A stretch of DNA of 64,000 nucleotides from Burkholderiaceae bacterium (GTDB lineage Bacteria > Pseudomonadota > Gammaproteobacteria > Burkholderiales > Burkholderiaceae): assembly GCA_947452535.1 (NCBI GenBank), contig CANGCM010000004.1, forward strand, positions 30,998 to 94,997, given 5' to 3'. Shown piece after piece: positions 4,020 to 46,835 of this stretch (positions are counted from its first letter, which is position 1; each line of letters starts with the position of its first letter). A program made the position numbers and the translations under genes. The notes under the pieces are model-generated. The model worked only from the letters and a program-made list of their open reading frames with translations, did not search any database and had not been told where the DNA came from.

Positions 4020-4056
4020 TAAATCCACTAGCCAGCATCTTACGTAAGCTGAATTT

Positions 4057-4839: not shown

Positions 4840-4933
4840 TGGTAAATTATAGATAGAGAGATTGATCCCTAGAGTAGCATATTAAGAACCCTATTTATTT
4901 GATCATCTTATTTTGATTGTTTAAAAAATCATC

Positions 4934-5776: not shown

Positions 5777-5872
5777 TCGAATGCTTTAATTAAGTTGTAC
5801 TATCTTTTAATATTTAGCTCAATCAGCGATATCATGCTTGAGTGAATCTTTTTAATAAATTATGAGGCTGAC

Positions 5873-6328
5873 ATGACAATATCTATTCAAACAATATCGA
5901 TTAAATCCGCATTAACGATTGCTCAAAATACATTGGAGTGCGCAAGGTCAGAAGGTATGCACCCAATTGCTGTTGTTGTATTGGATGTGCGCGGGGCTGT
6001 AAAGGCTTATTTGGCTGATGATGGAACTAGCTTACTCAGGTTTGATATTGCTCTCGGCAAAGCTGCTGGTACCTTAGGTATGGGTCTTGGGGGTCGTGAG
6101 CTTGAGCGGAAAGCAATTGCGGCACCTCATTTTATGAGCTCCCTGCCAGCTCTATCTAGCAAGGGAATGGTGCCTGTGCGAGGCGGTGTTTTGATAAAAA
6201 ATCAACAGGGCGAAATTATTGGGTCTGTTGGGGTTAGCGGGGACACTTCTGTTAATGATGAGATTTGCGCCCTAAAAGGGATTCAGAGTGCTGGCCTACT
6301 GGCAGATCATGGTGATAAAGAGAGCTAA
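5873..6328 (+). CDS. GlcG/HbpS family (DUF336) haem-binding-like protein
   Basis: 151 residues, no signal peptide. The family pattern is clear: an N-terminal helix, VVVLDVRGAVKAYLADDGT, an alanine-rich helix with LGKAAGTLGMG, then PVRGGVLIKNQQGEIIGSVGVSG. GlcG/HbpS proteins bind haem or cobalamin-like ligands or act in small-molecule catabolism, and they are often found beside glycolate or hydroxyacid genes. Two hydroxyacid-dehydrogenase-type genes follow. GAGG lies just before the ATG. Its stop codon sits inside a strong hairpin shared with the convergent gene at 6376. Confidence 0.85.
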   Translation: MTISIQTISIKSALTIAQNTLECARSEGMHPIAVVVLDVRGAVKAYLADDGTSLLRFDIALGKAAGTLGMGLGGRELERKAIAAPHFMSSLPALSSKGMVPVRGGVLIKNQQGEIIGSVGVSGDTSVNDEICALKGIQSAGLLADHGDKES

Positions 6329-20803: not shown

Positions 20804-22189
20804 TTAACTTTTTAATAGATTCCCAAGTAGAGAAACATCGGGCATCGATGGCAGGGAAATAACTGCATCAATGAATTGACTCAACTTCTCTTTTGGTAGG
20901 CGACTGCTCAACTCGGATTCCGCCCTAAAAATATGATCCTCGATGGTGAAGGGTCTGGCAATACTCCCTTTGGGGGATATTACAAATGCACTCAATTGTT
21001 GACCATTTCTCATTGTCACAATTACCTTCGCACTAACGGACTCTTCTGAGCTGGTCTTTTCAACTTCGTCATCTAGCTTACATTTTACTAATTGGGTTAG
21101 TTGCATCACTCTTGAGTCTTGCAATCCGATTACAAAATCATCCACCCCAAAAGAAAATGTAGTGCTACTAGATTGACGTAACAAACTGAGAGCGACTGCA
21201 AAAGGGGCGCTCATTTGAGCTGCCTGTAAATCAGTAGGATGGTTAGTTGTTAGACGCCCTTGAATGACCTTGGGTATCCCCAGATAGATCGATTGAATCT
21301 CGGAGGGATCAAAGGTAGGTTGATTACGAATTTCAGTACTGGCCTCAATCGCTGAAAGCACACGAGCACTGCAAGCATGCGGCTTCACAGCTACTTCTGC
21401 AATTCGATAGCTATCTCCCAGGCCATTTTCTAGTAAGGTGAAATCGACTGCATCAGCATACGCCCTAGCGAAACCATCTTTACCCTCAAAAATATCATGC
21501 GGTCCCGTAAAGCCAGACTCTACAAGTAGGGCCGCTTTGGTTCCTGAACTCGCTGCCTGTGCAGCATGCAAACGTTTCACAGTGGAACCAGAATGATAAA
21601 ACTGGGTTAACCCACCCGCGAAAGAGGCAGCAATACCTAAACTGGCTGCGATTGATTTTTCGCCTGCAGATCCGGGAAAGAGTAACTTGGCTGCGGTGAC
21701 TGCCGCGCCAAACACGCCCATAGTGGAGGTGCTCTGAAAGCCTCGACTAAAGTGGCTGGGTTGAATGCACAGTGCTAAACGGATCATCGCTTCATAGCCC
21801 GCAGCAATGGCCGCTAAAACTTCTGCGCCAGATTGACGTCGCGCTTGGCCAATTGCTAATCCCGTTGAAAACATAATGCAACCAGGATGCAGCATTGCAC
21901 CCACATGGACATCGTCTGCATCTAAGCTGCCGGCATATAAGCTATTTAGAAAAGCTGCACTAACTGGATCGTAATGGGTATCAGAGAATAAAACGGGACT
22001 AGATCCATTTCCTGCAGTGCTTTGGGCATAGCGACGCCCCCACTGACTCCACTCCATACGCTCACCAATAGAAGCTACACGAAAGTAATCTAAGGCGAAA
22101 TGAATTAATGAATTTTGTATGGGCGCCGGCAAATCAGAAAAACTTAAGTTTGCCGAGAATTGAGAAATAATCTGAGTTGCTTGAGTCAT
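20804..22189 (-). CDS. MmgE/PrpD family protein, tandem copy 2
   Basis: 461 residues. The DADDVHVGAMLHPG motif carries the conserved DD.H residues. FGAAVTAAKLLF and KPHACSARVLSAIEA mark the rest of the fold. It closely resembles the next gene upstream (22208-23602) along its whole length, including the shared IQP.H..RGFQ.T.T.GVFGAA stretch, and differs more from the one at 12412, so the adjacent pair arose by tandem duplication. Gap to its partner: 18 bases. The Shine-Dalgarno sequence is poor, suggesting coupling to the upstream gene. The pair may form a hetero-oligomer or act on two stereoisomers. Confidence 0.9.
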   Translation of the reverse strand: MTQATQIISQFSANLSFSDLPAPIQNSLIHFALDYFRVASIGERMEWSQWGRRYAQSTAGNGSSPVLFSDTHYDPVSAAFLNSLYAGSLDADDVHVGAMLHPGCIMFSTGLAIGQARRQSGAEVLAAIAAGYEAMIRLALCIQPSHFSRGFQSTSTMGVFGAAVTAAKLLFPGSAGEKSIAASLGIAASFAGGLTQFYHSGSTVKRLHAAQAASSGTKAALLVESGFTGPHDIFEGKDGFARAYADAVDFTLLENGLGDSYRIAEVAVKPHACSARVLSAIEASTEIRNQPTFDPSEIQSIYLGIPKVIQGRLTTNHPTDLQAAQMSAPFAVALSLLRQSSSTTFSFGVDDFVIGLQDSRVMQLTQLVKCKLDDEVEKTSSEESVSAKVIVTMRNGQQLSAFVISPKGSIARPFTIEDHIFRAESELSSRLPKEKLSQFIDAVISLPSMPDVSLLGNLLKS

Positions 22190-22207: not shown

Positions 22208-23602
22208 TTATTTTCTTAGAGCAAATAGGGGGTTTAAGTCTTTTAAGCGCTCTATCCTAAAAGCCTCTTCAAGCCACGCCTTACATTCTGTTTCACCTAA
22301 CATCTGTGCGCTTAAGGCCAAAAAGCGCTCCGCCACTTCTGCCGTTGTCATCGGGTTTTGTGGACAGCCCTTAGGACTAATCTCAAAATACTCTTGATTG
22401 CGACCATCATGCAGGTGCACGGTCACTCTTCCTGCAACAGACTCAGTAGTCGTTTGCTGTTCTACTTCTTGGTCTACTACACAGCTTGTACGTCGACATA
22501 AATTCCAGACAGAATCCATATTGAGTGCAGATTCATAATCATCAACCGACAAAGCTAGCGGACTCGGCTTACTTGGAGCCATCACAAAAGCCATGGCAAC
22601 TGCAAATGGGGTACTCAATTGAGCCTGCTGAATATCAATTGGATTATTTGATGCCAACTTACTCATCATGGCCCCATGCACGCCGATCGTGATGGACTCT
22701 ATATCTTGAGCTCTTACGCCTGATTTTGATAAATAGTTGGCCGCCTCAATAGCTGCTTGCATGCGTACGCTACCAACATGAGGCTTTAATGAAACCCATT
22801 CAGTTGGAAACGCTGAGCCCAAATTTTCGATACATACCTTAGGATCAAATCGATCAGAAAATGCTCGCGCGAAACCCTGTGTTCCTTCAATCGCATCATG
22901 TGGACCAGTGAGCCCAGCATGTGCTAATAATGCAGCCTCGACACCATTAGCAGCAGCTTTACCAGCATGAAAACGCTTAATATCAGAGCCAGAGACAAAG
23001 AATTGCGAGAGGCCACAAGAAAAGGTAGCAGCAATACCAAGTGCATTGCTACAGCCCTCGGGGGATAACTTTAGTAAACGCGCGCACGCAGCTGCTGCGC
23101 CAAATACACCGCAGGTAGGCGTACCTTGAAAACCTCGCAGTGAATGCTCTGGCTGGATTGACATTCCAATCCGGATAGCAGACTCATAGCCTACCAAGAC
23201 CGCAGTAAGCAATTCTTCTCCTGTGCATTTGACTATCTCTGCCATCGCCAAAGCTGCTGGCCAAATAACTACCCCAGGATGAATAATGGCAGCCACATGA
23301 GAATCATCCCAGTCTAAACTACCAGCAGCCACACCATTAATGAATGCAGCTCTAGCGACATCTACCTGAGTGCCTGCATATAAAATACTAGCCTCTCGAT
23401 TTGATACGTGAGATTGGTAAAGCTGAGTAACTGCATTTGTCCATGAGCGATCTTGTCCCGCTGACAAAGCGCGAAAAAAATCAATCATCAACACTGGCAT
23501 CAAACTTTTTACTTTAGGACTCGCTTCGGACCACTGAAAGGTAGAAACAAATCTACCTAATGCTTGAGTGACAGGTAGAGTAGTTGATGAGGCATGATTC
23601 AT
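22208..23602 (-). CDS. MmgE/PrpD family protein, tandem copy 1
   Basis: 464 residues. DWDDSHVAAIIHPGVVIWP contains the acid/base motif; RGFQGTPTCGVFGAAAACARLL and KPHVGSVRMQAAIEA follow. AAGGT lies upstream of the ATG. It lies 10 bases after the Bug gene at 23613-24587, so the order of transcription is Bug, PrpD, PrpD. As with the other copies, a polycarboxylate dehydratase, decarboxylase or epimerase is likely and a methylcitrate role is not supported by the neighbours. Confidence 0.9.
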   Translation of the reverse strand: MNHASSTTLPVTQALGRFVSTFQWSEASPKVKSLMPVLMIDFFRALSAGQDRSWTNAVTQLYQSHVSNREASILYAGTQVDVARAAFINGVAAGSLDWDDSHVAAIIHPGVVIWPAALAMAEIVKCTGEELLTAVLVGYESAIRIGMSIQPEHSLRGFQGTPTCGVFGAAAACARLLKLSPEGCSNALGIAATFSCGLSQFFVSGSDIKRFHAGKAAANGVEAALLAHAGLTGPHDAIEGTQGFARAFSDRFDPKVCIENLGSAFPTEWVSLKPHVGSVRMQAAIEAANYLSKSGVRAQDIESITIGVHGAMMSKLASNNPIDIQQAQLSTPFAVAMAFVMAPSKPSPLALSVDDYESALNMDSVWNLCRRTSCVVDQEVEQQTTTESVAGRVTVHLHDGRNQEYFEISPKGCPQNPMTTAEVAERFLALSAQMLGETECKAWLEEAFRIERLKDLNPLFALRK

Positions 23603-30699: not shown

Positions 30700-31493
30700 T
30701 GGGCTTTATAGAACTTGGGCAGGATTCCAAATTATTCTACTCAGTAGATGACAACACCAATCCATGGGAAGAGCCTGAAACCATCATTTTTGTCCATGGC
30801 TATACAGAAAGCACTGAGGCGTGGCGTTGCTTCATTCCCCATTTCTCTAGAAACTTTCGTGCGGTTCGATTTGATCAAAGAGGTTTTGGTCGCTCGGGAG
30901 CAGTTGAGCAGTCTTTCCATTATTCAACTGAGCTCTTGGTGAATGATTTATTCCAACTCATTCAAGCAGTATCACCAAACAAACCGGTACATTTAGTAGG
31001 AGGCAAGAGCGGTAATATTTGCGCTATTGCAACTGCTCTAAAGCACCCTCATCGGGTGAAGACCATCTCTATGGTGAGCCCTGCGATCAAGGCTCCAGAA
31101 TCTTCAGGATGGCTAGACCATATTGATCAGAATGGAGTAGCTAGCTGGGCCAGATGGACAATGGGGGCAAGGCTGGGTAGCAAGATGCCTAAGGAGGGAG
31201 TTGAGTGGTGGATCAATCTCATGGGGCAAACCGCTAGCAGCACAACTCATGCCTATCTGAGATGGGTGTCAGGTATTAACTTGGAAACAAGCTTGCATGC
31301 GTTACAGCAACCCATATTGATTGTTGGTAATGAATCACAGCGTCGGGGACGTGCTCAGTTTGAGCAATATGCCAACGCAATACCAAACTCTGAGCTCGTC
31401 ATGATTGATGTCGATGGCTACCATACGGGCGCCGTTGCGCCCGATCAATGCAGTCAAGCCATCCTTCGCTTTCTGGCAAAACATCCTATTTAA
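30699..31493 (+). CDS. Alpha/beta hydrolase (PcaD/MhpC-like)
   Basis: 264 residues. IIFVHGYTESTEAW gives the HG oxyanion motif, RFDQRGFGRSG follows, and the elbow reads GGKSGN, where the last small residue is Asn rather than Gly. The likely base is the His of DGYHTGAV. Size and layout match enol-lactone hydrolases and C-C hydrolases. It is tightly coupled to the CMD-like gene before it and 11 bases before the next Bug gene. Confidence 0.86.
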   Translation: MGFIELGQDSKLFYSVDDNTNPWEEPETIIFVHGYTESTEAWRCFIPHFSRNFRAVRFDQRGFGRSGAVEQSFHYSTELLVNDLFQLIQAVSPNKPVHLVGGKSGNICAIATALKHPHRVKTISMVSPAIKAPESSGWLDHIDQNGVASWARWTMGARLGSKMPKEGVEWWINLMGQTASSTTHAYLRWVSGINLETSLHALQQPILIVGNESQRRGRAQFEQYANAIPNSELVMIDVDGYHTGAVAPDQCSQAILRFLAKHPI

Positions 31494-31504
31494 AAGCGAA
31501 TGAA

Positions 31505-32479
31505 ATGAAGTGTATCTATCGAAATATTTTTTGCTATAGCTTGATTATTTTTGGCTTACTATTTGTGCCGCATGCAAATGCAGTATTCCCTGACCATCCA
31601 ATTCGCTTGGTTGTTCCCTCGGGTGCTGGTGGCATCACTGACAGCTTGGCGCGCCTATTAGCTACAGAGCTGAGTCAAAATTTAGGTCAGCAAGTTTTTG
31701 TGGAAAATCGACCTGGTGCTAGTGGTATTGCCGGCACCCAATTTGTTGCTAGTTCGCCTCCTGATGGCTACACACTTTTAATGGTGTTCCCTTCTCACGT
31801 ATCCAATCCCTCATTATTTAGCAAACTTCCTTACGACACCATTAAGGCTTTTGCGCCCATCTCCATGGTGAGTAATGTCTCGATGGTTTTTGTGGTGCCA
31901 AAAGATTCCCCGGCTAATAACATCAAAGAATTCATACTCTATGCAAAATCCAATCCTGGGAAATTAAATTTTGCAACAGTGGGCAGCGGTAGTTTGGGGC
32001 ATCTTGGGGCTGAACTATTTAATTCAATGGCAGGTACCTCTATTGCCCATATTCCTTATAAAGGGAGTCCTCAGGCAATGACAGCATTAATCAGTGGTGA
32101 GGCCAATATGTATTTGGTTGCATCCGCTAGTAGCGCGCTACCACTCATTAATGCCAAGCAAATTAAAGCCCTGGGTGTTAGTACAAAAGAGAAGTTACCC
32201 ATTTTGCCAAATACCCAACCCATCTCTGAAACTGTTAAGGGTTATGACGTACAAGGTTGGAATGGAATTATGGCGCCAGCTGGAACATCGCCAGAGATCA
32301 TTGAAAAGTTAAATAAGGCAATTATTAAATCCGTTGCCTCTGAAGAGTTCGCAAAAAAATTACGTCAAGAGGGTGCAACTGGGTTTACTAGCACACCGGC
32401 AGAATTTCAAAATCTGATTATGAGAGATATTGCGAAATGGGCGAAGGTCATTAAGAATGCAAATATACAATTAGATTAA
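31505..32479 (+). CDS. Bug/TctC-family solute-binding protein
   Basis: 324 residues from the ATG at 31505; the track start lies inside the preceding hydrolase gene and would add 19 residues before the signal. The Sec signal ends PHANAV (about residue 23). DHPIRLVVPSGAGGITD, VENRPGASGIAG, PPDGYTLL and HIPYKGSP are present. The ribosome site is weak, as expected for a gene coupled to one ending 11 bases earlier. Confidence 0.92.
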   Translation: MKCIYRNIFCYSLIIFGLLFVPHANAVFPDHPIRLVVPSGAGGITDSLARLLATELSQNLGQQVFVENRPGASGIAGTQFVASSPPDGYTLLMVFPSHVSNPSLFSKLPYDTIKAFAPISMVSNVSMVFVVPKDSPANNIKEFILYAKSNPGKLNFATVGSGSLGHLGAELFNSMAGTSIAHIPYKGSPQAMTALISGEANMYLVASASSALPLINAKQIKALGVSTKEKLPILPNTQPISETVKGYDVQGWNGIMAPAGTSPEIIEKLNKAIIKSVASEEFAKKLRQEGATGFTSTPAEFQNLIMRDIAKWAKVIKNANIQLD

Positions 32480-32543
32480 TGTGCCCTAAATAAGCTTGTA
32501 ATTTATAGTTAGGCATAAAAAAATATTTATAGATGGAGGAAAT

Positions 32544-33515
32544 ATGTGGCAATTAAGAATGCAAGGTGTGCTGGCCTGCCTTATGTTACTGATGATTCAG
32601 GGCGTTCATTCAGCAGAGTCTTCCGATAAGAATGTAAGATTAATTGTGCCGCTGGCTCCTGGTGGAATAGCAGACATTACTGCGAGACCATTAGCAGTTC
32701 CCTTATCTAGGGAGCTGGGTCAGTCAGTGATTGTTGAAAATAAAATTGGCGCTGGTGGAGCTATAGGGATGGCTTATGCGGCAAATCAAAAGCCTGACGG
32801 AAATACTCTATTGATGGCCTTGTCTAGCATCTTGATTATTCCAGAGGCAGATAAAGTATCGGGTAGACCGCAGTCTTATACGATGGCCAATTTCACTCCG
32901 ATTGCTTTGGTTAGTGCTGATCCTACTGTTCTAGTGGTTCGAGCTGATAGCCCGTGGAAAACCGTAAATGATTTAATCAGAGATGCTAGGGAAAACCCCA
33001 AAAAATATTCCTATAGCTCTTCCGGAATCTATGGGACTACCCATGTTGCACAAGCCATGTTGTGGCAGGCTGCTGGGGTAGACCTTTTGCATGTTCCGTA
33101 TAACGGAGGTGGCCCATCTTTGACGGCCTTGCTAGCTGGGCAGGTTGACGTAGTAGCTCAAGCCCCTGGAACTGCCGCTGCACAACAAAAAGCAGGAACG
33201 GTTCGATATCTAGGTACCTGGGGGGCTGACCGCTTAAAAGCATATCCAGATTTGCCGACAATGAAAGAGCAGGGCTATGATGTTGAGTTCTATATTTGGT
33301 CTGGCTTATTTTCTCCAGCAGGCTTGACTCAAGAAAAATTGGTGCAATTACGTAGGGCCGCTAAAAGTTCAATCAATGATCCTGGATTTATCGCTGCAAT
33401 GGGCGGCATGAATACTCCTATCAAATACCTTGATGGCCCTGATCTTGAAAAATTTATTTCTCAAGATCAAAAACGCTTAGCTACTGTAATTAAGAATATG
33501 GGTAAATTAGAATAA
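32544..33515 (+). CDS. Bug/TctC-family solute-binding protein
   Basis: 323 residues. GGAGG lies close to the ATG, and a Sec signal ends GVHSAE (about residue 24). KNVRLIVPLAPGGIAD, VENKIGAGGAIG, KPDGNTLL (N in place of the usual Y) and HVPYNGGG follow. It is the third Bug gene of the operon and lies 64 bases after the second, so different ligands, or a recent local duplication followed by divergence, should be considered. The FAA-hydrolase gene follows after 13 bases. Confidence 0.92.
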   Translation: MWQLRMQGVLACLMLLMIQGVHSAESSDKNVRLIVPLAPGGIADITARPLAVPLSRELGQSVIVENKIGAGGAIGMAYAANQKPDGNTLLMALSSILIIPEADKVSGRPQSYTMANFTPIALVSADPTVLVVRADSPWKTVNDLIRDARENPKKYSYSSSGIYGTTHVAQAMLWQAAGVDLLHVPYNGGGPSLTALLAGQVDVVAQAPGTAAAQQKAGTVRYLGTWGADRLKAYPDLPTMKEQGYDVEFYIWSGLFSPAGLTQEKLVQLRRAAKSSINDPGFIAAMGGMNTPIKYLDGPDLEKFISQDQKRLATVIKNMGKLE

Positions 33516-35352: not shown

Positions 35353-36261
35353 TTATTTTGCTTTAGCTAAAGATGGATCTTTAAAGCTTTCTACTAAAAA
35401 ATCAACTAAAGCGCGTACTGCAGCAGACATGTTATTTTTTTCTGGAAAAACTAGGGAGATATTGGCTGATGGTAAGGTCCAGTCGGTCAGTATTTGCTGT
35501 AGCCTGCCCGTTCGCAAGTGCGTATCGACCTCCCAAATAGATCGCATTAAAACACCATGACCCTCCAGTGCCCATGCGGTTGCTGATTCCCCATCATTCG
35601 TAGTAAGTTGCCCACGAACTTTAATCGTTTCATGCTTATTGCCTGAGTATAAATGCCAGGTGCCGAACGTTTCATTACTTTCCCTGAGGAAGATGCATTG
35701 ATGCTGTGTAAGATCCTTGGGGGTTTGGGGTACGCCCTGTCGAAGGAGATATTTTGGAGATGCACATAAAATACGTTTGTTGGGGATCAAAGTCCGGGAG
35801 GTTAATCTGGTGTCCGGTAAATTACCAAAATGGATAAATAAGTCTATATTTTGCTCAAGGGCATTAATCGGCTTGTCTGTAAGATGCAGCTGTATTTCAA
35901 CATCTTGAAACGTACGTACAAATTTAGATAATGCCGGAGCAATATATTTTCGGCCAAAGCCGAGGGTTGCGCCCATACGAATAGTTCCTCTTGGGGTCGC
36001 TTTTCTTCTGGCTATAGATTGCTCCAAGGCCTCTAGATCATCTAACACCTTACCCCCTTCTATTAGGTAGATATCACCCTCTGGAGTCAGGCTAATGCGT
36101 CGAGTGGTTCTATTGAGCAATCTCACTCCCAGGCGAGCCTCAAGGTTTGCAAGGCGTTTACTCACTGCTGGCGGCGTGACTCCCATCTCTTGAGCTGCGC
36201 TGTAAAGACTTCCTTTTTTGATCAGGAGCGAGAAAAAGGCAATGTCAGAAAATGGATTCAT
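35353..36261 (-). CDS. LysR-family transcriptional regulator
   Basis: 302 residues. The N-terminal winged helix reads SLYSAAQEMGVTPPAVSKRLANLEARLGVRLLNRTTRRISLT; the effector domain follows (RGTIRMGATLGFGRKYIAPAL and on). LysR proteins usually activate a divergent operon in response to a pathway metabolite. This one is divergent from the PdxA-like gene at 36403, with a 141-base AT-rich gap between, so it most likely controls that operon. It is the only dedicated metabolic regulator in the whole Bug-rich region. Confidence 0.93.
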   Translation of the reverse strand: MNPFSDIAFFSLLIKKGSLYSAAQEMGVTPPAVSKRLANLEARLGVRLLNRTTRRISLTPEGDIYLIEGGKVLDDLEALEQSIARRKATPRGTIRMGATLGFGRKYIAPALSKFVRTFQDVEIQLHLTDKPINALEQNIDLFIHFGNLPDTRLTSRTLIPNKRILCASPKYLLRQGVPQTPKDLTQHQCIFLRESNETFGTWHLYSGNKHETIKVRGQLTTNDGESATAWALEGHGVLMRSIWEVDTHLRTGRLQQILTDWTLPSANISLVFPEKNNMSAAVRALVDFLVESFKDPSLAKAK

Positions 36262-36402
36262 TCGTAATTTAAAGTTATTAAAGTGATAAATTAATGTTAA
36301 CTATAAACTCAATTTCATCAGTTAATATGCTTAAAACGTATGCAATTGCCACTGCTTTTGTATAAAAGATACTTAAATAACTATTTCACTGAAGGGTATT
36401 TC

Positions 36403-37410
36403 ATGATTCAAAAGCCAATTATTGGCCTAATGTTGGGTGATGTCACCGGTATTGGCCCCGAGGTTGCTGTGAAACTGCTTGCTGATCCAGCCACGCATGA
36501 GCATGCCAAAGTTTTAGTAGTTGGGGATCGCCGAGTTCTTGAGCTTGGTCTGGCTGATGCTAAGGCGCAGTTACCAGTTAATGTCGTAAGTGATGTTGAC
36601 TCTGTCGATTGGTCGCAGCCTGGGATTCAGATGATTGATTTGAAAAATATCGACCCTAGCCAGATTGAGCGTGGCTTAACTTCTATTGAATCGGGGCGGC
36701 TGACTGGTGAAACCCTTAAAGTAATGACGGATATGGTTCATGCTGGAAAAATTGATGCAGTGTGCTTTGCACCTCTTAATAAAGGCGCACTGAACAAGGG
36801 TGGTTGGAAGTATAGGGATGAGCATGAGATGTTTGCCAAGTGGAATGATCACGAGGGCTATTACGGCGAAGTGAATTTAATCAAACTATTTTGTACTTTC
36901 CGAGTCACCTCACACGTTAGTCTTCGTCAAGCGGTTGATTTGGTTATCCCTGAAAGAATAGAGGGCGCATTGCGCTTAGCTCATGAGACTATGCGCGGTC
37001 TTGGAAAGGCGCAACCCCGAATTGGAGTGGCTGCTTTAAATCCCCATAACGGAGAGGGCGGTTTATTTGGCACAGAAGAAATTGAAATCATTAGGCCCAC
37101 CCTAGAGAGACTGCGCACAGAAAATCTTCCATCCGAAGGCCCATTTCCATCTGATACCGTTTTTCTAAAGGCGCGTGCAGGAGATTTTGATGCGGTTGTG
37201 ATCATGTATCACGACCAGGGTCAGATTGCTACCAAGTTATTAGGCTTTACTGAGGGTGTCACTTTGACAGGTGGTCTTAAGACTTTGTACACCACTCCTT
37301 CACATGGCACTGCATACGATATCGTTGGCAAAGGAATTGCGGATGTTGGTGCTATGAAAAGAGCTTTTGATGTGATTGTTAATCTTGCTACTGCAAGAAA
37401 AAATAAGTAA
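36403..37410 (+). CDS. PdxA-family 4-phosphohydroxyacid dehydrogenase
   Basis: 335 residues from the ATG at 36403 (GAAGGG 6 bases upstream; the track start adds 21 unsupported residues). Family motifs: GDVTGIGPEV, NKGALNKGG, DEHEMF, ALNPHNGEGGLFG, YHDQGQIATK, TPSHGTAYDIVGKG. The three metal-binding His (DEHEMF, NPHNGE, YHDQ) are kept. PdxA makes pyridoxine precursor, but relatives oxidise 4-phospho-D-threonate or -erythronate (PdxA2) or aromatic cis-diols (TphB). Its position in a LysR-controlled catabolic operon favours a PdxA2- or TphB-like role. No kinase gene of the DUF1537 type, the usual PdxA2 partner, is in the window. Confidence 0.85.
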   Translation: MIQKPIIGLMLGDVTGIGPEVAVKLLADPATHEHAKVLVVGDRRVLELGLADAKAQLPVNVVSDVDSVDWSQPGIQMIDLKNIDPSQIERGLTSIESGRLTGETLKVMTDMVHAGKIDAVCFAPLNKGALNKGGWKYRDEHEMFAKWNDHEGYYGEVNLIKLFCTFRVTSHVSLRQAVDLVIPERIEGALRLAHETMRGLGKAQPRIGVAALNPHNGEGGLFGTEEIEIIRPTLERLRTENLPSEGPFPSDTVFLKARAGDFDAVVIMYHDQGQIATKLLGFTEGVTLTGGLKTLYTTPSHGTAYDIVGKGIADVGAMKRAFDVIVNLATARKNK

Positions 37411-37421
37411 GGGAGAGGCTC

Positions 37422-38372
37422 ATGTCCAGAAAAAAAATCCTCACTCCTGCGGATGTTGAGTCCTTAGAATTTGATGCGCTCATTCCGTACAACACAAACC
37501 TCATGGAGGGTTTTAAGCCCTTTAAGTTACCAGGCGATGGCGTCAATATTAATGGTGTTATTGGTGGTAGCGGCCCGCCGCTGTTATTAATTCATGGAAA
37601 TCCACTGACTCATGTTACTTGGCACAAGGTTGCGCCAACATTAGCTCGGCACTTTACTGTCGTGGCGATTGACCTGCGAGGTTATGGTGATAGCGATAAG
37701 CCCTTGGGCGGCGGCGATCATTCGGAATACTCATTTCGTTCGATGGCCAATGATGCTGTAAAGGTCATGGCTCAGTTAGGCTTTGAGAAATTTCCCGTAG
37801 TTGGACATGATCGAGGTGCGCGCGTTGGCTTTAGAATGTGTTTGGATCATCCTGGGGTCGTAACTAAATTTATACCCTTAGATATTGTGCCTACTCATGA
37901 GGTGTTGAATAAGGTAACGATGGGTTGGGGTCTTGAATCCTACCATTGGTTTTTCATGGCTCAAAAAGAGCCCTTTCCAGAGCGCTTGATCTGTGCAGAT
38001 CTGAACTATTACATCAATTACAAGCTGAATAAAAAGGGCGTAGGATTAAAAATATTTGCCCCAGAAGCATTTGCTGAATATGCTCGCTGTACTACTCCAG
38101 AACAAATTCACGCTATCTGCGAGGACTATCGTGCTACGGTATCAATTGATCTTGAGATGGATACTGCCGACCTAGCAAATAATAAGAAAATTACCTGTCC
38201 AGTAATGGTTCTGTGGGGGAGCAACAGTCACTGTGGAAGGCACTTCACGCCAATGGCGGCTTGGAGTAAGTGGGCCGATGAGCTTGAGGGCACTGATATT
38301 CCCACAGGACATTACCCTCAGGAAGAGCGCCCAGATTTAATTTATAAAGCCATTCGATCTTTTATTGCTTAG
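37422..38372 (+). CDS. Fluoroacetate/haloacetate-dehalogenase-like alpha/beta hydrolase
   Basis: 316 residues. The nucleophile is Asp: VVGHDRGARVGFRM gives D130 with R131 and R134, the arginines that hold the carboxylate in fluoroacetate dehalogenase. LDIVPT supplies D154, SYHWFF supplies H175-W176 of the halide pocket, EDYRA has the Tyr (Y237), and TGHYPQ the catalytic H297. Spacing matches D110, R111, R114, D134, H155, W156, Y219 and H280 of the Rhodopseudomonas enzyme, recalled from memory. Hydrolytic removal of halide from a 2-haloacid is therefore plausible; epoxide hydrolases are the nearest alternative. It starts 11 bases after the PdxA-like gene. Confidence 0.88.
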   Translation: MSRKKILTPADVESLEFDALIPYNTNLMEGFKPFKLPGDGVNINGVIGGSGPPLLLIHGNPLTHVTWHKVAPTLARHFTVVAIDLRGYGDSDKPLGGGDHSEYSFRSMANDAVKVMAQLGFEKFPVVGHDRGARVGFRMCLDHPGVVTKFIPLDIVPTHEVLNKVTMGWGLESYHWFFMAQKEPFPERLICADLNYYINYKLNKKGVGLKIFAPEAFAEYARCTTPEQIHAICEDYRATVSIDLEMDTADLANNKKITCPVMVLWGSNSHCGRHFTPMAAWSKWADELEGTDIPTGHYPQEERPDLIYKAIRSFIA

Positions 38373-38427: not shown

Positions 38428-39399
38428 ATGATGACTATTAGATCAACTATTCTTTTCTTACTATGCTGCTTCTCTTTGAATGGGTATGCCGATGATGCCT
38501 ACCCCACAAAACCAATCCGCTTGTATGTAGGATTTGCACCTGGTGGTGGTACAGATATTGCTGCAAGGATTATTGCCCCCTATGTATCAAAGGAATTGGG
38601 ACAATCCATCATTATTGAGAATAAGCCTGGAGTTGGTGGAAATATTGCTACGGATATCATTTCAAAGTCAGCGCCTGATGGCTATCTGATTATGTTGAGT
38701 TCAGTAGGACCCTTAGCTTATAGCCCACATATTTATAAGCTAGGTTATGACCCATTAAAAGATCTCACCCCACTTGGCTTGGGCGTATCTTCAGGCAATG
38801 CTTTAATCGTAAATCCCCAGGTGTTAAAGACAAAAACTTTGGCTGAGTATGTTGCTATTGCAGACAAAACACCCGGCGGATTGGCATATGGTAGCTCAGG
38901 CTCTGGTAGTGGCGGTCATTTGGCTGGTGAGTTATTCGCGGCAACCGCAAAAATAAAATTAATCCATATTGGCTATCGTGGCGGAGGCCCTGCAATTAAT
39001 GATTTACTGGGCGGCACTGTACCTTCGTTATTTGCGACGATTATCACTGCAAAGCAGTTAATTGAATCTGGAAAAGTAGATGCATTGGCAGTTACTAGTC
39101 GCCAACGTTCAAAGGCTTTGCCGAATGTGCCAACCATAGCAGAGTTAGGTTACCCAGGATATGAGGCTGCAAATTGGTATGCCTTTGTTGCCCCGCCTAA
39201 AATGCCGCCAGCTATTGTTAATAAGTTGAATGCTGCCATCAATAAGGCCCTGCGAGATCCGCAAATTAGGGAGAGGTTAATTATGCAAGGTCTCGATCCT
39301 ACGCCTTCAACCCCAGATGAAATGGCTGTTTATATGAAAAAAGAATACAACCTTTGGGGTAATGTGATTACTAAGGCTGGAATAAAGGTGGATAACTAA
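38428..39399 (+). CDS. Bug/TctC-family solute-binding protein
   Basis: 323 residues with a short Sec signal ending NGYADD (about residue 23). TKPIRLYVGFAPGGGTD, IENKPGVGGNIA, APDGYLIM and HIGYRGGG (in place of HVPYKGGG) mark a subgroup that also includes the protein at 45864. Two ATGs in tandem (38428 and 38431) could serve as start. It lies 55 bases after the dehalogenase-like gene, so a carboxylate, possibly halogenated, is a reasonable ligand guess. Confidence 0.92.
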   Translation: MMTIRSTILFLLCCFSLNGYADDAYPTKPIRLYVGFAPGGGTDIAARIIAPYVSKELGQSIIIENKPGVGGNIATDIISKSAPDGYLIMLSSVGPLAYSPHIYKLGYDPLKDLTPLGLGVSSGNALIVNPQVLKTKTLAEYVAIADKTPGGLAYGSSGSGSGGHLAGELFAATAKIKLIHIGYRGGGPAINDLLGGTVPSLFATIITAKQLIESGKVDALAVTSRQRSKALPNVPTIAELGYPGYEAANWYAFVAPPKMPPAIVNKLNAAINKALRDPQIRERLIMQGLDPTPSTPDEMAVYMKKEYNLWGNVITKAGIKVDN

Positions 39400-39454
39400 T
39401 CCATGGACGATCATGCTAGTTCAATGGTGTTGCTAATGATTGCAGAGGCCTGAT

Positions 39455-40858
39455 ATGGCTTCGAAAACCTTGTATCAGAAATTAGTTGATTCACATACAG
39501 TGGCTGTATTAGATCAGGAGAATGTACTTCTTTTTTGTGATTTGCATTTAATGAACGAGTACACGAGCCCACAAGCCTTTGCAGGGCTGGAGGAGAAGGG
39601 ATACTCGGTCGCCGTCCCTGGCCAGAATGTGGCTGTAGTTAGTCATATCATTCCAACACATCACACTTCTCCGAGACTAATTGCTGATCCGGCTTCTGCA
39701 TTGCAGGCAAGATTTCTAAAGCGAAATTGCGACAGATATCACATTCCTTTATTTGATACGAATGATCGGCTGCAAGGTATTGAGCATGTAGTTTCACCAG
39801 AGCACGGAATGATTAGGCCAGGAATGGTGGTGATTTGCGGAGATAGTCACACAACGACCTATGGTGCATTAGGAGCCTTAGGTTTTGGTATTGGTACATC
39901 AGAGGTTGAGCATGTTCTTGCAACTCAGACCTTGGTTTATCGCCTTGCTAAGAATATGAGAATTACCGTCAGTGGCGTTTTACCGCTTGGTAGCACATCT
40001 AAAGATTTAATTTTAATGATCATTAGCAAAATCGGAGCTAAAGGTGCTATTGGTTGCGTTATTGAATTTTGTGGAAGCGCTATTGAGGCACTTAGCATTG
40101 AGGCCCGATTTACTCTGTGCAATATGGCTGTTGAGGCAGGTGCGCGCGGCGCATTAATTTCTCCTGATCAAGTGGCTATTAATTATGTGCTGCAACGTGC
40201 TAAAGATATTACGGGCGAGATTCAAGATCAGGCGCTTCTATTTTGGGGTGGCCTGCAATCTGATCTAGGCGCTAAATTTGATATTGAATATCAATTTGAT
40301 GCTAGCAATATTGCCCCCCATGTTACTTGGGGTACAAGTCCTGATCAGGCTGTGGAGATTGGTTTGCCTTTGCCCCATCAAAATTCCTTTTCTGACCCCG
40401 TTGAAAATTTAAGTCTTGAGCAGGCATTGCGGTACACCCAGTTGCAAGCTGGGCAAACACTTGAGGGCGTTCCAATTCAGCATGTATTTATTGGGTCTTG
40501 TACGAATGGTCGCATTGAGGATTTGAGAAGTGTTGTGCAGGTCATTGGCAATCGAAAAGTAGCTAAAGGCATCCGTGCAATGGTTGTACCTGGCTCTGGG
40601 GCCGTTAAAGAGCAGGCCGAGGCCGAGGGCATTGCGGATATTTTAATTTCTGCAGGCTTTGAATGGCGTAATCCGGGTTGCTCGATGTGTCTCGCTATGA
40701 ATGATGATGTGCTCAAACCAGGGGTCCGCTGTGCCTCAACAACGAATCGCAACTTTGAAGGGCGCCAGGGGCGAGGGGCAATTACCCATCTCATGAGTCC
40801 AGCCATGGCCGCAGCCGCAGCTATTACTGGAAAAATTACCGACGTTCGTAAATTGTAA
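39455..40858 (+). CDS. LeuC-like large subunit of an isopropylmalate/citraconate-type dehydratase
   Basis: 467 residues from the ATG at 39455 (AGAGG about 6 bases upstream; the track start is TTG). The aconitase-fold motifs are CGDSHTTTYGALGALGFGIGTSEVEHVLATQT and GSCTNGRIEDLR, with NPGCSMCLAMN completing the three cysteines for a 4Fe-4S cluster. It resembles bacterial LeuC, but no leuB or leuA is nearby and the genes lie with catabolic CoA-transferases. A citraconate/D-citramalate hydratase or related hydro-lyase is therefore a real alternative. It is followed 13 bases later by its small subunit. Confidence 0.9.
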   Translation: MASKTLYQKLVDSHTVAVLDQENVLLFCDLHLMNEYTSPQAFAGLEEKGYSVAVPGQNVAVVSHIIPTHHTSPRLIADPASALQARFLKRNCDRYHIPLFDTNDRLQGIEHVVSPEHGMIRPGMVVICGDSHTTTYGALGALGFGIGTSEVEHVLATQTLVYRLAKNMRITVSGVLPLGSTSKDLILMIISKIGAKGAIGCVIEFCGSAIEALSIEARFTLCNMAVEAGARGALISPDQVAINYVLQRAKDITGEIQDQALLFWGGLQSDLGAKFDIEYQFDASNIAPHVTWGTSPDQAVEIGLPLPHQNSFSDPVENLSLEQALRYTQLQAGQTLEGVPIQHVFIGSCTNGRIEDLRSVVQVIGNRKVAKGIRAMVVPGSGAVKEQAEAEGIADILISAGFEWRNPGCSMCLAMNDDVLKPGVRCASTTNRNFEGRQGRGAITHLMSPAMAAAAAITGKITDVRKL

Positions 40859-40871
40859 GAAGGCGATCTAA

Positions 40872-41522
40872 ATGCCCCATCAAACCATTATTCAAGGCTA
40901 TGCCGCTCCCTTACGAATTGCAAATTTTGATACTGATCAGGTAATGCCTAAGCAGTTTTTACGCGGTATTGATAAGTCCGGCTTAAAGGATGGCCTTTTT
41001 TATGACTTACGCTTTGATGATCAGGGGCAATTAAGGCCAGACTTCTTTTTAAATCAGCCCACCTACGCTTTGACAGATGTATTAATTGCAGGTCCAAACT
41101 ATGGATGTGGGTCTAGTCGCGAGCATGCGGTTTGGGGGATGCAGCAATATGGCTTTAAAGCGGTCATTGCCTCTAGTTTTGCAGAGATTTTTTATTCCAA
41201 TGCAATGGGCAATCGCTTGCTATTAGTTGTGTTGCCGGAGGATCAGGTACAAGCTTTGATGAAAGAGGCTGATGACGAATCCGGCCCCATTAAGGTAGAG
41301 ATTGATATTGAGAATGGTGTTGTACGGACACTAAAGCATCAGTTCACATTTTTAATGTCTGAAAGACATCATCGGATGTTTTTAGAGGGCTTAGATGTGA
41401 TTGGCCTCACTTTGAAATATCAAAGTCAGATTGACAATTTTTCCCAGTTGCATTGGAATGCTCATCCATGGCTTAATAATGTAGCTCGTAGTGTAGTAGA
41501 TCGATTGGCTCAATCTGAATAA
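40872..41522 (+). CDS. LeuD-like small subunit of the dehydratase
   Basis: 216 residues. Motifs: NFDTDQVMPKQFLRGIDKSGL and GPNYGCGSSREHAVWGMQQYGFKAVIASSFAEIFYSNA, the swivelling-domain signature of LeuD. YGCGSSREHA carries the active-site loop. It is a normal-length, full small subunit coded directly after the large one, so the two form the active heterodimer. Its substrate choice would follow that of the LeuC-like subunit. Confidence 0.92.
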   Translation: MPHQTIIQGYAAPLRIANFDTDQVMPKQFLRGIDKSGLKDGLFYDLRFDDQGQLRPDFFLNQPTYALTDVLIAGPNYGCGSSREHAVWGMQQYGFKAVIASSFAEIFYSNAMGNRLLLVVLPEDQVQALMKEADDESGPIKVEIDIENGVVRTLKHQFTFLMSERHHRMFLEGLDVIGLTLKYQSQIDNFSQLHWNAHPWLNNVARSVVDRLAQSE

Positions 41523-41609: not shown

Positions 41610-42656
41610 ATGAAACAAATTAGTGAAGGATCGTGGCATAGAAGTAGATGGCACATAACTCGCTCTCTGTTGAATGATTTTTTGAAGATGAGGTTTATTA
41701 AAGTCACCTTAATTACAGTGATGATGTGTACGTTAACTAATACGTATGCTAGCGACTATCCTGATAGACCTATTAAGTTGATTGTGGGTTATGCCCCAGG
41801 CGGCGGAACAGATTTAGTTGCTAGATTAGTAGGGCCTTCTCTTGGGCGTGCTCTTGGACAATCTATCGTAATCGAAAATAAGCCCGGAGCGGGAGGTTCC
41901 GCTGCAGCATCTTATGTCTCCAAGTCTAAGCCTGATGGATACACATTATTAATTTCAAGCGCTAGTAGCGTCTCAATTTACCCTGCTTTAAGTGCTAAAG
42001 CTGACTATCGTCAGAATCAATTTGCTCCTGTATCGCAGTTAACTATTGCCCCATTGGTTTTGGTAGTGAATAAGGATTTAGGGGTTCGCTCCGTTTCTGA
42101 CCTAGTCAAGCTTGCAAAGGCATCCCCTGGAAAGTTAAATTATTCCAGTTCAGGAATTGGTTCTGGGCCTCATTTTGCTGGCGTGTTGTTCAATGAAGTA
42201 GCAAATGTACAAATGACTCATGTGCCATTTAAGAGCGGCTCACCAGCGGTGATTTCAGTGGTTGGCGGAGAATCGCAATTAACTTTTGCTACAACTCCGA
42301 CCGTAATGCAGTTGATACGAGCAGGGCAGCTAACCGGCCTAGCCGTCACAAGCAAAGAGTCATCTCCTTTGGTCGAAGGCCTCCCTGGAATGAAGGCCGC
42401 CGGTTTGCTTGGGTATGAAATATTCCAATGGAATGCTATTTTTGCTCCGGCGGGAACACCACCCGAGGTGCTCAATAAACTATATGCCGGAATTAAGACA
42501 GCGATGAGTAATCCAGCTGTGAAGCAGTCTCTGGAGTCAGAGGGAACCGAGGTATTCGTTTCCAGTTCACCAGAAGCATTTAAAAATTTCTTAAAAAACG
42601 ATACCAAGTTTTGGGAGAGGTTAATTAATTCCGGTGGTATTAAAGCATTTGAGTAA
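41610..42656 (+). CDS. Bug/TctC-family solute-binding protein
   Basis: 348 residues as drawn. The ATG at 41610 has AAGGA 9 bases upstream, but the Sec signal itself begins at the internal ATG at 41688 (MRFIKVTLITVMMCTLTNTYAS), so the true protein may be 322 residues. DRPIKLIVGYAPGGGTD, IENKPGAGGSAA, KPDGYTLL and HVPFKSGS are present; the last replaces YKG by FKS, unlike all other copies here. It lies 87 bases after LeuD and 43 before the CoA-transferase. Confidence 0.9.
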   Translation: MKQISEGSWHRSRWHITRSLLNDFLKMRFIKVTLITVMMCTLTNTYASDYPDRPIKLIVGYAPGGGTDLVARLVGPSLGRALGQSIVIENKPGAGGSAAASYVSKSKPDGYTLLISSASSVSIYPALSAKADYRQNQFAPVSQLTIAPLVLVVNKDLGVRSVSDLVKLAKASPGKLNYSSSGIGSGPHFAGVLFNEVANVQMTHVPFKSGSPAVISVVGGESQLTFATTPTVMQLIRAGQLTGLAVTSKESSPLVEGLPGMKAAGLLGYEIFQWNAIFAPAGTPPEVLNKLYAGIKTAMSNPAVKQSLESEGTEVFVSSSPEAFKNFLKNDTKFWERLINSGGIKAFE

Positions 42657-42699: not shown

Positions 42700-43908
42700 A
42701 TGCAAGCTTTTAGTGGAATTAGAGTTCTAGATGTAACGCGAGTATTGGCTGGACCTTATGCTTCTTATCAGCTAGCGCTTTTGGGTGCTGACGTCATTAA
42801 GATTGAGCCAGTAAAGAAGGGAGAATCTACACGCTGGCGCTCTGAGGGTGATGCAAAATTAGGTGACATTGGAATGTCTCCTTCATTTCTAACCCAGGGC
42901 GCCAATAAAAGCTCATTAACCCTAAACTTAGATAGCAAAGAAGGTCAGGAGATTTTTTTGAGATTGGCGGCTACAGCCGATGTTATTGTTGAAAACTTGC
43001 GCGCTGGTTCAATGGAAAAACGAAATATTGGCTATGAGCAAGTTTGCAAGGTTAAGCCCGATATCATTTATTGCTCAATGACTGGCTACGGCCAAACAGG
43101 CCCTAAATCACGCTACCCTGCATACGATAGTGTCATTCAGGCTGCGGCTGGATTTATGAGTATTACAGGCACCCCAGAGAGTGGTCCTTTAAAGTCTGGG
43201 CCTCCTGTGGTTGATTACGCCATGGGAATGTCTGGTGCTTATGCTATTTCAGCGGCTTTATTTCAGAGATTTCGCAATGGAACTGGTCAGCATATCGATA
43301 TTTCAATGCTTGATAGTTGTATGGCGTTGATGTCAAGTATTCTGACTGCTTACATGAATACTGGAAATCCTCCTGGATTGCGAGGAAATGAAGCGCCAAG
43401 TCGTTCGCCTGCTTCAACGACTTTTGAAACTGCCGATGGATTACTTGCAATCGCGATTAACGAGCAGCACCAATTTGTCAATTTACTGGAGTCTATTGGT
43501 TTGGCTGACATGCTATTGGACGAGCGGTTCAAGGATGCGGCTAGCAGAAGAAGTCATACTCAAATTCTACGTGATGCGATTCAAGAGGCTTTGATGGGTA
43601 ATACTGCCAGTAATTGGGAGCCTGTCATTAATGGGGCTGGAGTGCCAGCTGCAAAAGTGCTCAGCATTCCAGAGGTCATGAAAACAGCGCAAGTAATAGA
43701 TCGCGAATTTTTTGGAAAAATTGCTCAAGAAGAATCTGGTTTAGATCGAGATCTGCAGCTACCTAAAGCCGCATTTCAATTTCGCAACAATGGACCAGCT
43801 TTGCGTTCGCCACCGCCACGTATTGGCGCTGACACCCAATCTATCTTAGAGTATTTGGGATATATTCCTGATGAGATTGAGTCACTTAGAAAGTCTGGGA
43901 TTGTTTAA
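42700..43908 (+). CDS. Class III CoA-transferase (CaiB/BaiF family)
   Basis: 402 residues. RVLDVTRVLAGPYASYQLALLGADVIKIE is the N-terminal CoA-binding signature, ANKSSLTLNL and GYGQTGPKSRYPAYDSVIQA follow. The Asp of PAYD (D143) is at the position of the catalytic aspartate that forms the acyl anhydride, so transferase activity is expected. Donor and acceptor cannot be read; carboxylic acids such as oxalate, malate, citramalate or carnitine are handled by relatives. A second family member lies at 46915. Together with the LeuCD genes it supports a pathway through CoA thioesters. Confidence 0.92.
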   Translation: MQAFSGIRVLDVTRVLAGPYASYQLALLGADVIKIEPVKKGESTRWRSEGDAKLGDIGMSPSFLTQGANKSSLTLNLDSKEGQEIFLRLAATADVIVENLRAGSMEKRNIGYEQVCKVKPDIIYCSMTGYGQTGPKSRYPAYDSVIQAAAGFMSITGTPESGPLKSGPPVVDYAMGMSGAYAISAALFQRFRNGTGQHIDISMLDSCMALMSSILTAYMNTGNPPGLRGNEAPSRSPASTTFETADGLLAIAINEQHQFVNLLESIGLADMLLDERFKDAASRRSHTQILRDAIQEALMGNTASNWEPVINGAGVPAAKVLSIPEVMKTAQVIDREFFGKIAQEESGLDRDLQLPKAAFQFRNNGPALRSPPPRIGADTQSILEYLGYIPDEIESLRKSGIV

Positions 43909-44685: not shown

Positions 44686-44846
44686 TGCATCGACTTTATT
44701 CGGTCCAGTTAGACAATGCGAGTATTGGCTTAATCCCTTGGCCTTAGCTCTAAACTAAATAGAGCTTCATTGTGGGTAATAATGCGGTATCGAGGAATGC
44801 TCTATTACTATCAATCAGGGGCCCTCAAACAATTAGGAGAATTTTG

Positions 44847-45806
44847 GTGAAAAATGGATTTATAGCTTTAGCGATGTTGATTTCATCAGGACTTGCATTG
44901 GCCGACTATCCAGAGAAATCGATCCGTTTGGTTGTGCCATTTGCCACTGGTGGAACCTCCGAGATTGTTGCAAGATCAGTTGCAAGTAGTCTCAGCACAA
45001 GCATGGGCCAATCAGTGTATGTCGATAACAAACCTGGTGGCGCTGGCAATATTGCGATGGAGGAAGTGAAGCGCGCCAATCCTGATGGCTACACTTTAAT
45101 GCTAGGTCACGTAGGAACCTTAGCGGTCAATCCAGCTTTGTTCGGTAAAAAATTACCCTATGACCCCAATAAAGACTTTATGCCAGTTACCTTGGTGGCA
45201 AAAGTGCCTAATGTCATTGCGGTGAGTGAAAAAAGCCCCTATAAAACTTTAGCTGATTTGGTTGCGGATGCTAAAAAAAATCCCGCAAAAATTAACTATG
45301 GTTCAGCTGGTAACGGTAGTGCTGGGCATTTAGCGATGGAATACTTTTCTTCTGAGGCGGGAATTGATTTAGTGCATGTTCCTTATAAGGGCTCTGGCCC
45401 GATGCTGACAGATTTAATTGGCGGACAGATTCAAGCAACTTTTAATGGCCTACCCTCATTGATGGGGCAGATTAAAGGGGGCACTTTACGTCCACTCGCC
45501 GTTGGCTCTGCTGACAGATCCAAAGTCTTGCCTAATGTACCCACCTTATCCGAGTCGGGCTACAAAGGATTTGAGACCTCTCAGTGGTATGGAATTATTG
45601 TTCCCGCTGGAACGCCTCAGCCAATTATCGATAGATTGCAGAGAGAGATTGCTAAGTCTCTAAAGTCCAAAGAAGACTCAAAGAGGATGCTGGAGGATGG
45701 TGCCGTGTTAATTGGTGATACGCCAGCTCAATTTGCTGCATTTATTAAGTCAGAGCAAAATCGCTGGACTAAGGTTATTGAAAAAGCAAAAATAACGATT
45801 GATTAA
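44847..45806 (+). CDS. Bug/TctC-family solute-binding protein, GTG start
   Basis: 319 residues from the GTG at 44847, which has AGGAGA 6 bases upstream and opens directly into a Sec signal (VKNGFIALAMLISSGLALAD). The track start 75 bases earlier gives an unlikely leader. EKSIRLVVPFATGGTSE has Glu where all other copies here have the ligand-loop Asp. VDNKPGGAGNIA, NPDGYTLM and HVPYKGSG are normal. The Asp-to-Glu change may move the second carboxylate-binding water. Confidence 0.92.
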   Translation: MKNGFIALAMLISSGLALADYPEKSIRLVVPFATGGTSEIVARSVASSLSTSMGQSVYVDNKPGGAGNIAMEEVKRANPDGYTLMLGHVGTLAVNPALFGKKLPYDPNKDFMPVTLVAKVPNVIAVSEKSPYKTLADLVADAKKNPAKINYGSAGNGSAGHLAMEYFSSEAGIDLVHVPYKGSGPMLTDLIGGQIQATFNGLPSLMGQIKGGTLRPLAVGSADRSKVLPNVPTLSESGYKGFETSQWYGIIVPAGTPQPIIDRLQREIAKSLKSKEDSKRMLEDGAVLIGDTPAQFAAFIKSEQNRWTKVIEKAKITID

Positions 45807-45863
45807 ACCGTTGTATTTCCTAATGCCCATATGCTTGGCTTTAATAGAGGATGGTTACTAATA

Positions 45864-46835
45864 ATGAAAAAAAATACATTGAATATTTTCTTGTGCATTA
45901 CGTTAGGCTTATTAGGCCACTCAGTGAGCGCACAAGAATTCCCGCCTAAAAAAACAATCACCATGATTGTGGGTTTTGCAGCTGGTGGTGCCGCTGATAC
46001 ATCGGCTCGGATTATCGCAAAAAAGCTGGGTGAGAATATTGGTGCAAGTGTAGTGGTTGATAATCGTGGTGGTGCCGGCGGAAATATTGCTCACCAATTT
46101 GCTGCTAATGGCCCCACAGATGGCAGTACGATATTGTTTGGTTCGGTTGGCCCGCTGACCATTGCGCCGCACATGATGAAGCTCCCTTACGATCCATTTA
46201 AAGATCTTTCGCCGATCTCTATGGCCGTTAACTTCCCAAATGTTTTGGTGGTGAATTCTGGCACAGGGATCAAAACATTCGCGGAGTACATTGCTTACGC
46301 TAAGAAAAACCCTAAAAAACTGGAGTATGCGTCTACTGGGCCTGGTTCTGCGTCCCATCTTGCAGGCGAGTTATTAGATGAGATGGCAAGTATTGATACG
46401 GTACACATTCCCTACAAGGGCGGTGCACCTGCAATGCAGGATTTGTTGGGTGAGCGCGTGGCAGCTTACTTTTCAACCTACAGCACAGCACAAGCTTACA
46501 TTGAGAATGGCAAGCTCAACGCCTTAGCTGTAACCGGCCCGCAACGACTCAAATCACTCCCTAAGATTCCCACTATTGCTGAATCGGGCTACCCTGGGTT
46601 TAATGCAACAAATTGGTATGCTTTTGTTGCTTCCTCAAAGGTCCCTGCTTCAATACTGGATCGGTGGAATACCGAGATCGTGAAGGCATTAAAGTCCCCT
46701 GATGTATTGAAGCAACTCAATGATCATGGTCTTACACCATTGCCTGGCACACGTGATGAACTTGCAAAATATATGAGCAAGGAATCTGAAACGTGGGGGC
46801 GCATTATCCGCGAAAGAAAAATCACAGGCGAATAA
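45864..46835 (+). CDS. Bug/TctC-family solute-binding protein
   Basis: 323 residues from the ATG at 45864, where the Sec signal starts (MKKNTLNIFLCITLGLLGHS, ending VSAQE). The track start adds 11 residues and has no ribosome site; AGAGG is 13 bases from the chosen ATG, which is rather far. KTITMIVGFAAGGAAD, VDNRGGAGGNIA, PTDGSTILF (S in place of Y) and HIPYKGGA are present. It follows the Bug gene at 44847 by 57 bases: two binding proteins in tandem just before the second CoA-transferase. Confidence 0.91.
   Translation: MKKNTLNIFLCITLGLLGHSVSAQEFPPKKTITMIVGFAAGGAADTSARIIAKKLGENIGASVVVDNRGGAGGNIAHQFAANGPTDGSTILFGSVGPLTIAPHMMKLPYDPFKDLSPISMAVNFPNVLVVNSGTGIKTFAEYIAYAKKNPKKLEYASTGPGSASHLAGELLDEMASIDTVHIPYKGGAPAMQDLLGERVAAYFSTYSTAQAYIENGKLNALAVTGPQRLKSLPKIPTIAESGYPGFNATNWYAFVASSKVPASILDRWNTEIVKALKSPDVLKQLNDHGLTPLPGTRDELAKYMSKESETWGRIIRERKITGE

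Follow-up and report, generated by a model that had tools for sequence, protein, structure and literature searches.

Fluoroacetate dehalogenases (FAcDs) have attracted study for their ability to break C-F bonds, with bioremediation in view. Their chemistry combines an ester formed on an active-site Asp, a substrate carboxylate held by Arg residues, and a His-Trp-Tyr pocket for the leaving group (PMC11022551). RPA1163 (3R3U), FA1 (1Y37), DehH1, DAR3835 (8SDC), NOS0089/Alr0039 (3QYJ) and D4B (9C9F) share their fold with the hydrolase described here, together with the Asp-His-Asp triad, the Arg pair, the His-Trp-Tyr pocket, and the length and order of the motifs. The hydrolase differs from them in having Asn60 in place of an aromatic residue (His in D4B), Leu62 in place of Gln/Glu, Trp169, Lys201/204/205 in the region of RPA1163 Trp185, H270-x-x-R273-H274, and P299; it also belongs to a separate clade and lies in a neighbourhood of hydroxy-dicarboxylate enzymes. 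A further relative, the ‘probable epoxide hydrolase’ PA2086 of Pseudomonas aeruginosa (4BAT; monofluoroacetate complex, 4B9E), is about 41% identical to the hydrolase and has the complete FAcD catalytic set. Unlike the hydrolase, PA2086 lacks the clade signature, and it sits on a long branch elsewhere in the tree.

Cif-type epoxide hydrolases are not known to have the FAcD-type Arg pair. They resemble the hydrolase in their Asp nucleophile and, it appears, in their His-Tyr lid pair, and homology is detectable (1e-36), but overall similarity is much lower and the X of their HGxP motif is as a rule aromatic. These enzymes are described as closely related to FAcDs, and in epoxide hydrolases X ‘tends to be’ aromatic, a tendency that is not absolute (PMC8244358). 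The cis-epoxysuccinate hydrolases CESH[L] and CESH[D] share the reaction proposed below, from a dicarboxylate epoxide to tartrate. CESH[L], a relative of the haloacid dehalogenase family, also uses Asp ester chemistry, and converts epoxysuccinate to tartrate (PMC6429283, PMC10869282). It has a HAD/Rossmann fold and CESH[D] is a TIM barrel; neither is homologous to the hydrolase, which has an alpha/beta hydrolase fold.

The window, the whole stretch of 64,000 nucleotides analysed here, appears from the nearest relatives of the hydrolase to come from a freshwater betaproteobacterium of Polynucleobacter type. The genes around the hydrolase are as follows.

35353..36261, minus strand: LysR-type regulator, divergent; best NCBIfam model TtdR, 234.5 against a cut-off of 398
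36340..37410 (start possibly 36400), plus strand: PdxA-like hydroxyacid dehydrogenase; PF04166, 268 bits; 11 bp upstream of the hydrolase
37422..38372, plus strand: FAcD-like Asp-nucleophile alpha/beta hydrolase; D130/R131/R134/D154/H175/W176/Y236/H297; clade signature N60, L62, W169, K201, K204, K205, H270, R273, H274, P299
38428..39399, plus strand: Bug/TctC periplasmic receptor; PF03401, 244 bits; 55 bp downstream of the hydrolase
39440..40858, plus strand: LeuC-like large subunit (IPM isomerase/aconitase family), second copy in the genome; profile matches
40872..41522, plus strand: LeuD-like small subunit; profile matches
41610..42656, plus strand: Bug/TctC receptor, possibly in the transcription unit of the hydrolase
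42700..43908, plus strand: class III CoA-transferase (CaiB family), possibly in the transcription unit of the hydrolase

The plus-strand genes are separated by gaps of 11-87 bp, and the coupling of the hydrolase to a PdxA-like gene and a Bug receptor, part of the original prediction, is borne out. TtdR, the top NCBIfam model of the LysR gene at a score well under the cut-off, is an activator of L-tartrate utilisation; a LysR-type regulator is also found at two related loci (L001 and L002). A Bug/TctC receptor adjoins the hydrolase in most of the close Polynucleobacter-type loci (L001, L003-L006). A scan for promoters and terminators gave nothing that clearly exceeded shuffled sequences. Two conventional assignments were rejected: the PdxA-like gene is not a plain vitamin B6 enzyme, as it falls below every NCBIfam PdxA equivalog cut-off and travels with the hydrolase, and the LeuC/LeuD pair is not the leucine-biosynthesis set, as another, higher-scoring LeuC is encoded on contig C1.

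Six Bug/TctC receptor genes lie within 16 kb of the window (31448-33515, 38428-39399, 41610-42656 and 44772-46835), the members of the pairs 31448/32544 and 44772/45831 being side by side, and CoA-transferase, FAA hydrolase, HMGL-like and IPM-isomerase genes lie between them. The window also contains three MmgE/PrpD-family genes on the minus strand (12412-13812, 20804-22189 and 22208-23602). The genome (1.79 Mb, 75% complete) has 17 genes of this family, which seems many for its size.

The frame at 37422-38372, which encodes an alpha/beta hydrolase of 316 amino acids, is a genuine gene; the frame antisense to it has many stops. The protein is 40-48% identical to FAcDs with solved structures, and its phmmer matches in the PDB, among them Alr0039/NOS0089 (3qyj, 9.7e-86), D4B FAcD (9c9f, 1.5e-80), RPA1163 (3r3u, 1.1e-72) and FA1 (1y37, 6.8e-66), indicate homology far beyond chance. 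In an alignment whose RPA1163 and FA1 sequences are identical to 3R3U and 1Y37, the RPA1163 residues D110/R111/R114/D134/H155/W156/Y219/H280 correspond to D130/R131/R134/D154/H175/W176/Y236/H297 of the hydrolase. The triad D130-H297-D154 and the carboxylate-binding pair R131/R134 are thus present and invariant in the clade, the halide pocket is placed at H175, W176 and Y236, and none of the eight residues varies across 44 relatives. All eight active-site residues that had been predicted are therefore there, except that the Tyr had been placed one position too far along, at residue 237, which is Arg.

At the level of fold, the structural comparison with a known FAcD that had been suggested as a check points the same way. 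An AlphaFold model built from the alignment of relatives (mean pLDDT 89.5) has the alpha/beta hydrolase fold with an FAcD-type cap, and its best Foldseek matches are RPA1163 and D4B FAcD (TMq 0.85-0.86; RPA1163 at TMq 0.86 and 40% identity). The lid segment 205-210 is unreliable in this model (pLDDT <50). The FAcD-type catalytic machinery of the original prediction is thus upheld by fold, by residues matching those of RPA1163, and by their invariance in the 44 relatives. FAcD-type chemistry is well supported by sequence and model, and the protein is to all appearances a genuine FAcD-like enzyme with a complete active site; its membership of the FAcDs in function is a separate, putative matter.

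Close relatives of the hydrolase (62-94% identity) come from Polynucleobacter and further Burkholderiales, and more broadly from Rhizobiales and other Alphaproteobacteria. Within the genus the gene is rare, being found in its own genome and in 2 of the 36 relative genomes examined (84-85% identity), with further Polynucleobacter database entries at 89-94%. One contig of 37276 bases (L007) is filed under a Chloroflexota MAG, Thermoflexus hugenholtzii, but looks misfiled because both its length and its hydrolase sequence match a contig (G025:C7) of the window's own genus. In a tree of 81 sequences, made by a quick method with the clade sampled by identity and with some long reference branches, the 42 rows of the hydrolase clade are set apart by a branch with an SH-aLRT of 99. 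DehH1 and the six FAcD-like references, each characterised or structurally solved, fall outside, and no characterised FAcD lies within the 42 clade rows, so that the hydrolase does not group among the characterised enzymes; two more distant sequences (L095 and L107) sit just outside the clade. An FAcD-like paralogue, 43-48% identical, is common in the genus. The copy in the hydrolase's own genome (G000:C1:119140-120000; L082, L146) has the complete catalytic set and an HGFP motif, with an aromatic X; it is a better candidate than the hydrolase (P0001) for an ordinary haloacid dehalogenase.

Around the conserved machinery, the pocket of the clade is distinctive. Near-fixed positions are N60, L62, W169, K182, Y200, K201, N203, K204, K205, N268-S269-H270, G272, R273, H274 and P299, and the pocket and lid positions mostly differ from the six references, DehH1 and the Polynucleobacter paralogues. 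N60 and K205, at the pocket-lining positions where characterised FAcDs have Phe40 (or Tyr) and Trp185, are unlike all references, although the references themselves vary here (D4B has His/Arg at these positions). Asn is also the halide-binding residue of haloalkane dehalogenases, and thus Asn60 of the HGNP motif (residues 58-61), a non-aromatic X, does not decide the leaving group. The clade adds the basic residues K201, K204, K205, R273 and H274, which would be suited to a substrate bearing two or more carboxylates. K205 occupies the position of RPA1163 Trp185, a residue of the active-site pocket (PMC11465415). Since D4B FAcD (9c9f) is likewise without Trp185 and the HGxP aromatic, these differences are compatible with activity on fluoroacetate or chloroacetate.

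Gene neighbourhoods were compared within about 6 kb of the hydrolase at 85 clade loci and at 39 control FAcD-like loci, mostly Polynucleobacter paralogues. With loci treated as independent of kinship in the Fisher tests, a PdxA-like gene was present at 55 of 85 clade loci and 1 of 39 controls (p 4e-12), one MmgE/PrpD type (MmgE_b) at 52 of 85 and 0 of 39 (p 1e-12), and a tartrate dehydrogenase at 31 of 85 and 4 of 39 (p 0.002). Any marker neighbour was found at 68 of 85 clade loci versus 5 of 39 controls, and about 20% of the clade loci have none. Neighbours in relatives include PdxA-like, MmgE/PrpD, tartrate dehydrogenase and isocitrate/isopropylmalate-type dehydrogenase genes and Tct transporters; a further group of loci has an MR/MLE enolase-family gene adjoining the hydrolase. 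The linkage extends over many families belonging to two classes and takes two forms: most Betaproteobacteria have the pdxA-like gene upstream of the hydrolase and co-oriented with it, and in Rhizobiales the two genes are divergent, so that the PdxA-hydrolase link has survived rearrangement. The nearest solved relatives of the MmgE/PrpD neighbours are IDS-epimerase and cis-aconitate decarboxylase, and these neighbours, with the Tct transporters, point to polycarboxylates.

Two of the linked tartrate dehydrogenases scored 567 and 572 against the TIGR02089 curated cut-off of 470; enzymes of this type can also use D-malate. Across the genus a tartrate dehydrogenase is present in 36 of 61 genomes and does not track the hydrolase clade, so physical linkage alone is used as evidence here. 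In the genome under study the gene is on a separate contig, away from the hydrolase, and the best match to MmgE_b in this 75%-complete genome was 46%, no orthologue being found. Tartrate dehydrogenase genes also lie near some FAcD-like genes outside the clade (L150, L152, L153 and L090); L150, L153 and L090 hint that a role related to tartrate may extend more widely through the FAcD-like family. At three loci from other Polynucleobacter genomes (L154, L155 and L156; about 3930-6000), orthologues of the window's LeuC/LeuD genes (74-78%) adjoin a different, D4B-type FAcD-like gene, and IPM-isomerase-like pairs are therefore linked to FAcD-like enzymes twice. Among the open-access PMC literature we found no paper joining a haloacetate dehalogenase with tartrate dehydrogenase, PdxA or MmgE; a report on the Rhizobium rhizosphere (PMC3333776) mentions tartrate and dehalogenase genes, but these are unrelated ones.

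These results bear on whether the hydrolase is a true fluoroacetate/haloacetate dehalogenase that serves haloacid uptake and dehalogenation, as had been thought conceivable. Its catalytic and halide-pocket residues are all in place, including W176, whose FA1 counterpart Trp150 is required for defluorination (PMC11022551). Fluoroacetate activity has been reported for some of its best PDB relatives, and the genome encodes a CrcB fluoride exporter at another site. Set against this are the separate clade, the different, near-fixed pocket, the hydroxy-dicarboxylate enzymes next door and the more ordinary paralogue on contig C1. Neither crcB nor a fluoride riboswitch was found near the hydrolase, the window having no match to the riboswitch or to any other Rfam family, whereas on pUO1 dehH1 and crcB are 1.2 kb apart, separated by a transposase gene; within the clade, similarity searches found crcB near one locus only (L010). 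We consider this function unlikely, and the context lends no support to a role in taking up and dehalogenating a simple haloacid.

Because the clade forms a separate branch, has an altered, more positive pocket and adjoins genes for the breakdown of tartrate-like acids, a substrate other than fluoroacetate is favoured. The foremost candidate, to which we give an even chance, is a small halo- or epoxy-di/tricarboxylate, converted to a hydroxy acid of the tartrate or malate type. Judging by conservation, Arg131/Arg134 would hold a carboxylate of the substrate and Asp130 would attack the adjacent alpha carbon. His175/Trp176/Tyr236 would stabilise the leaving group, either halide or epoxide oxygen, and water that His297/Asp154 activate would hydrolyse the covalent ester. 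The resulting tartrate/malate-type acid could then be oxidised by the linked PdxA-like dehydrogenase or by tartrate dehydrogenase, which is linked in relatives and lies elsewhere in this genome. Another dehalogenase fold offers a precedent for such a shift in CESH[L]. A role in hydroxy-dicarboxylate catabolism is plausible.

A narrower form of this explanation is that the hydrolase acts on epoxysuccinate (cis or trans) and makes tartrate, as an alpha/beta counterpart of CESH[L]/CESH[D]. That the linked tartrate dehydrogenases score higher than the curated threshold would fit, although such enzymes may act on D-malate and most Polynucleobacter-type loci have no tartrate dehydrogenase beside the hydrolase. 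The extra basic residues offer a possible binding site for a second carboxylate, and trans-epoxysuccinate occurs naturally as a fungal metabolite (PMC12568646). His175 and Tyr236, placed by the FAcD alignment, resemble the ring-opening pair of Cif-type epoxide hydrolases, an equivalence drawn from PMC8244358 rather than from superposition; HGNP, however, is without the aromatic X usual in epoxide hydrolases. On balance we regard this specific substrate as possible but doubtful.

Cleavage of a different bond within this pathway, such as that of an ester or lactone, with the FAcD residues merely inherited, would be in keeping with substrate drift among alpha/beta hydrolases and with a reported esterase-dehalogenase that is weakly homologous to FAcDs; the nucleophile of that enzyme is Ser (PMC13230308), whereas the hydrolase has Asp130. 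As neither Asp130 nor any residue of the leaving-group set varies among 44 relatives, SN2 chemistry at carbon is favoured, and bond cleavage of the former kind appears very unlikely.

Extended from the halo- or epoxy-di/tricarboxylate reading, a tentative proposal is that this widespread proteobacterial clade might represent an unrecognised epoxysuccinate/halosuccinate-type hydrolase of the alpha/beta hydrolase fold, feeding tartrate-type dehydrogenases, and hence a third independent origin of epoxysuccinate hydrolysis. Annotation can give members of the clade the label of FAcDs, haloacetate dehalogenase (dehH), or call them plain alpha/beta hydrolases. If their substrates are naturally occurring epoxy- or halo-dicarboxylates, database records with the former label are wrong. 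In that case the clade would also reveal a natural pool of enzymes that may give rise to defluorinases, and would offer new, diverse scaffolds for trials of defluorination and tartrate synthesis.
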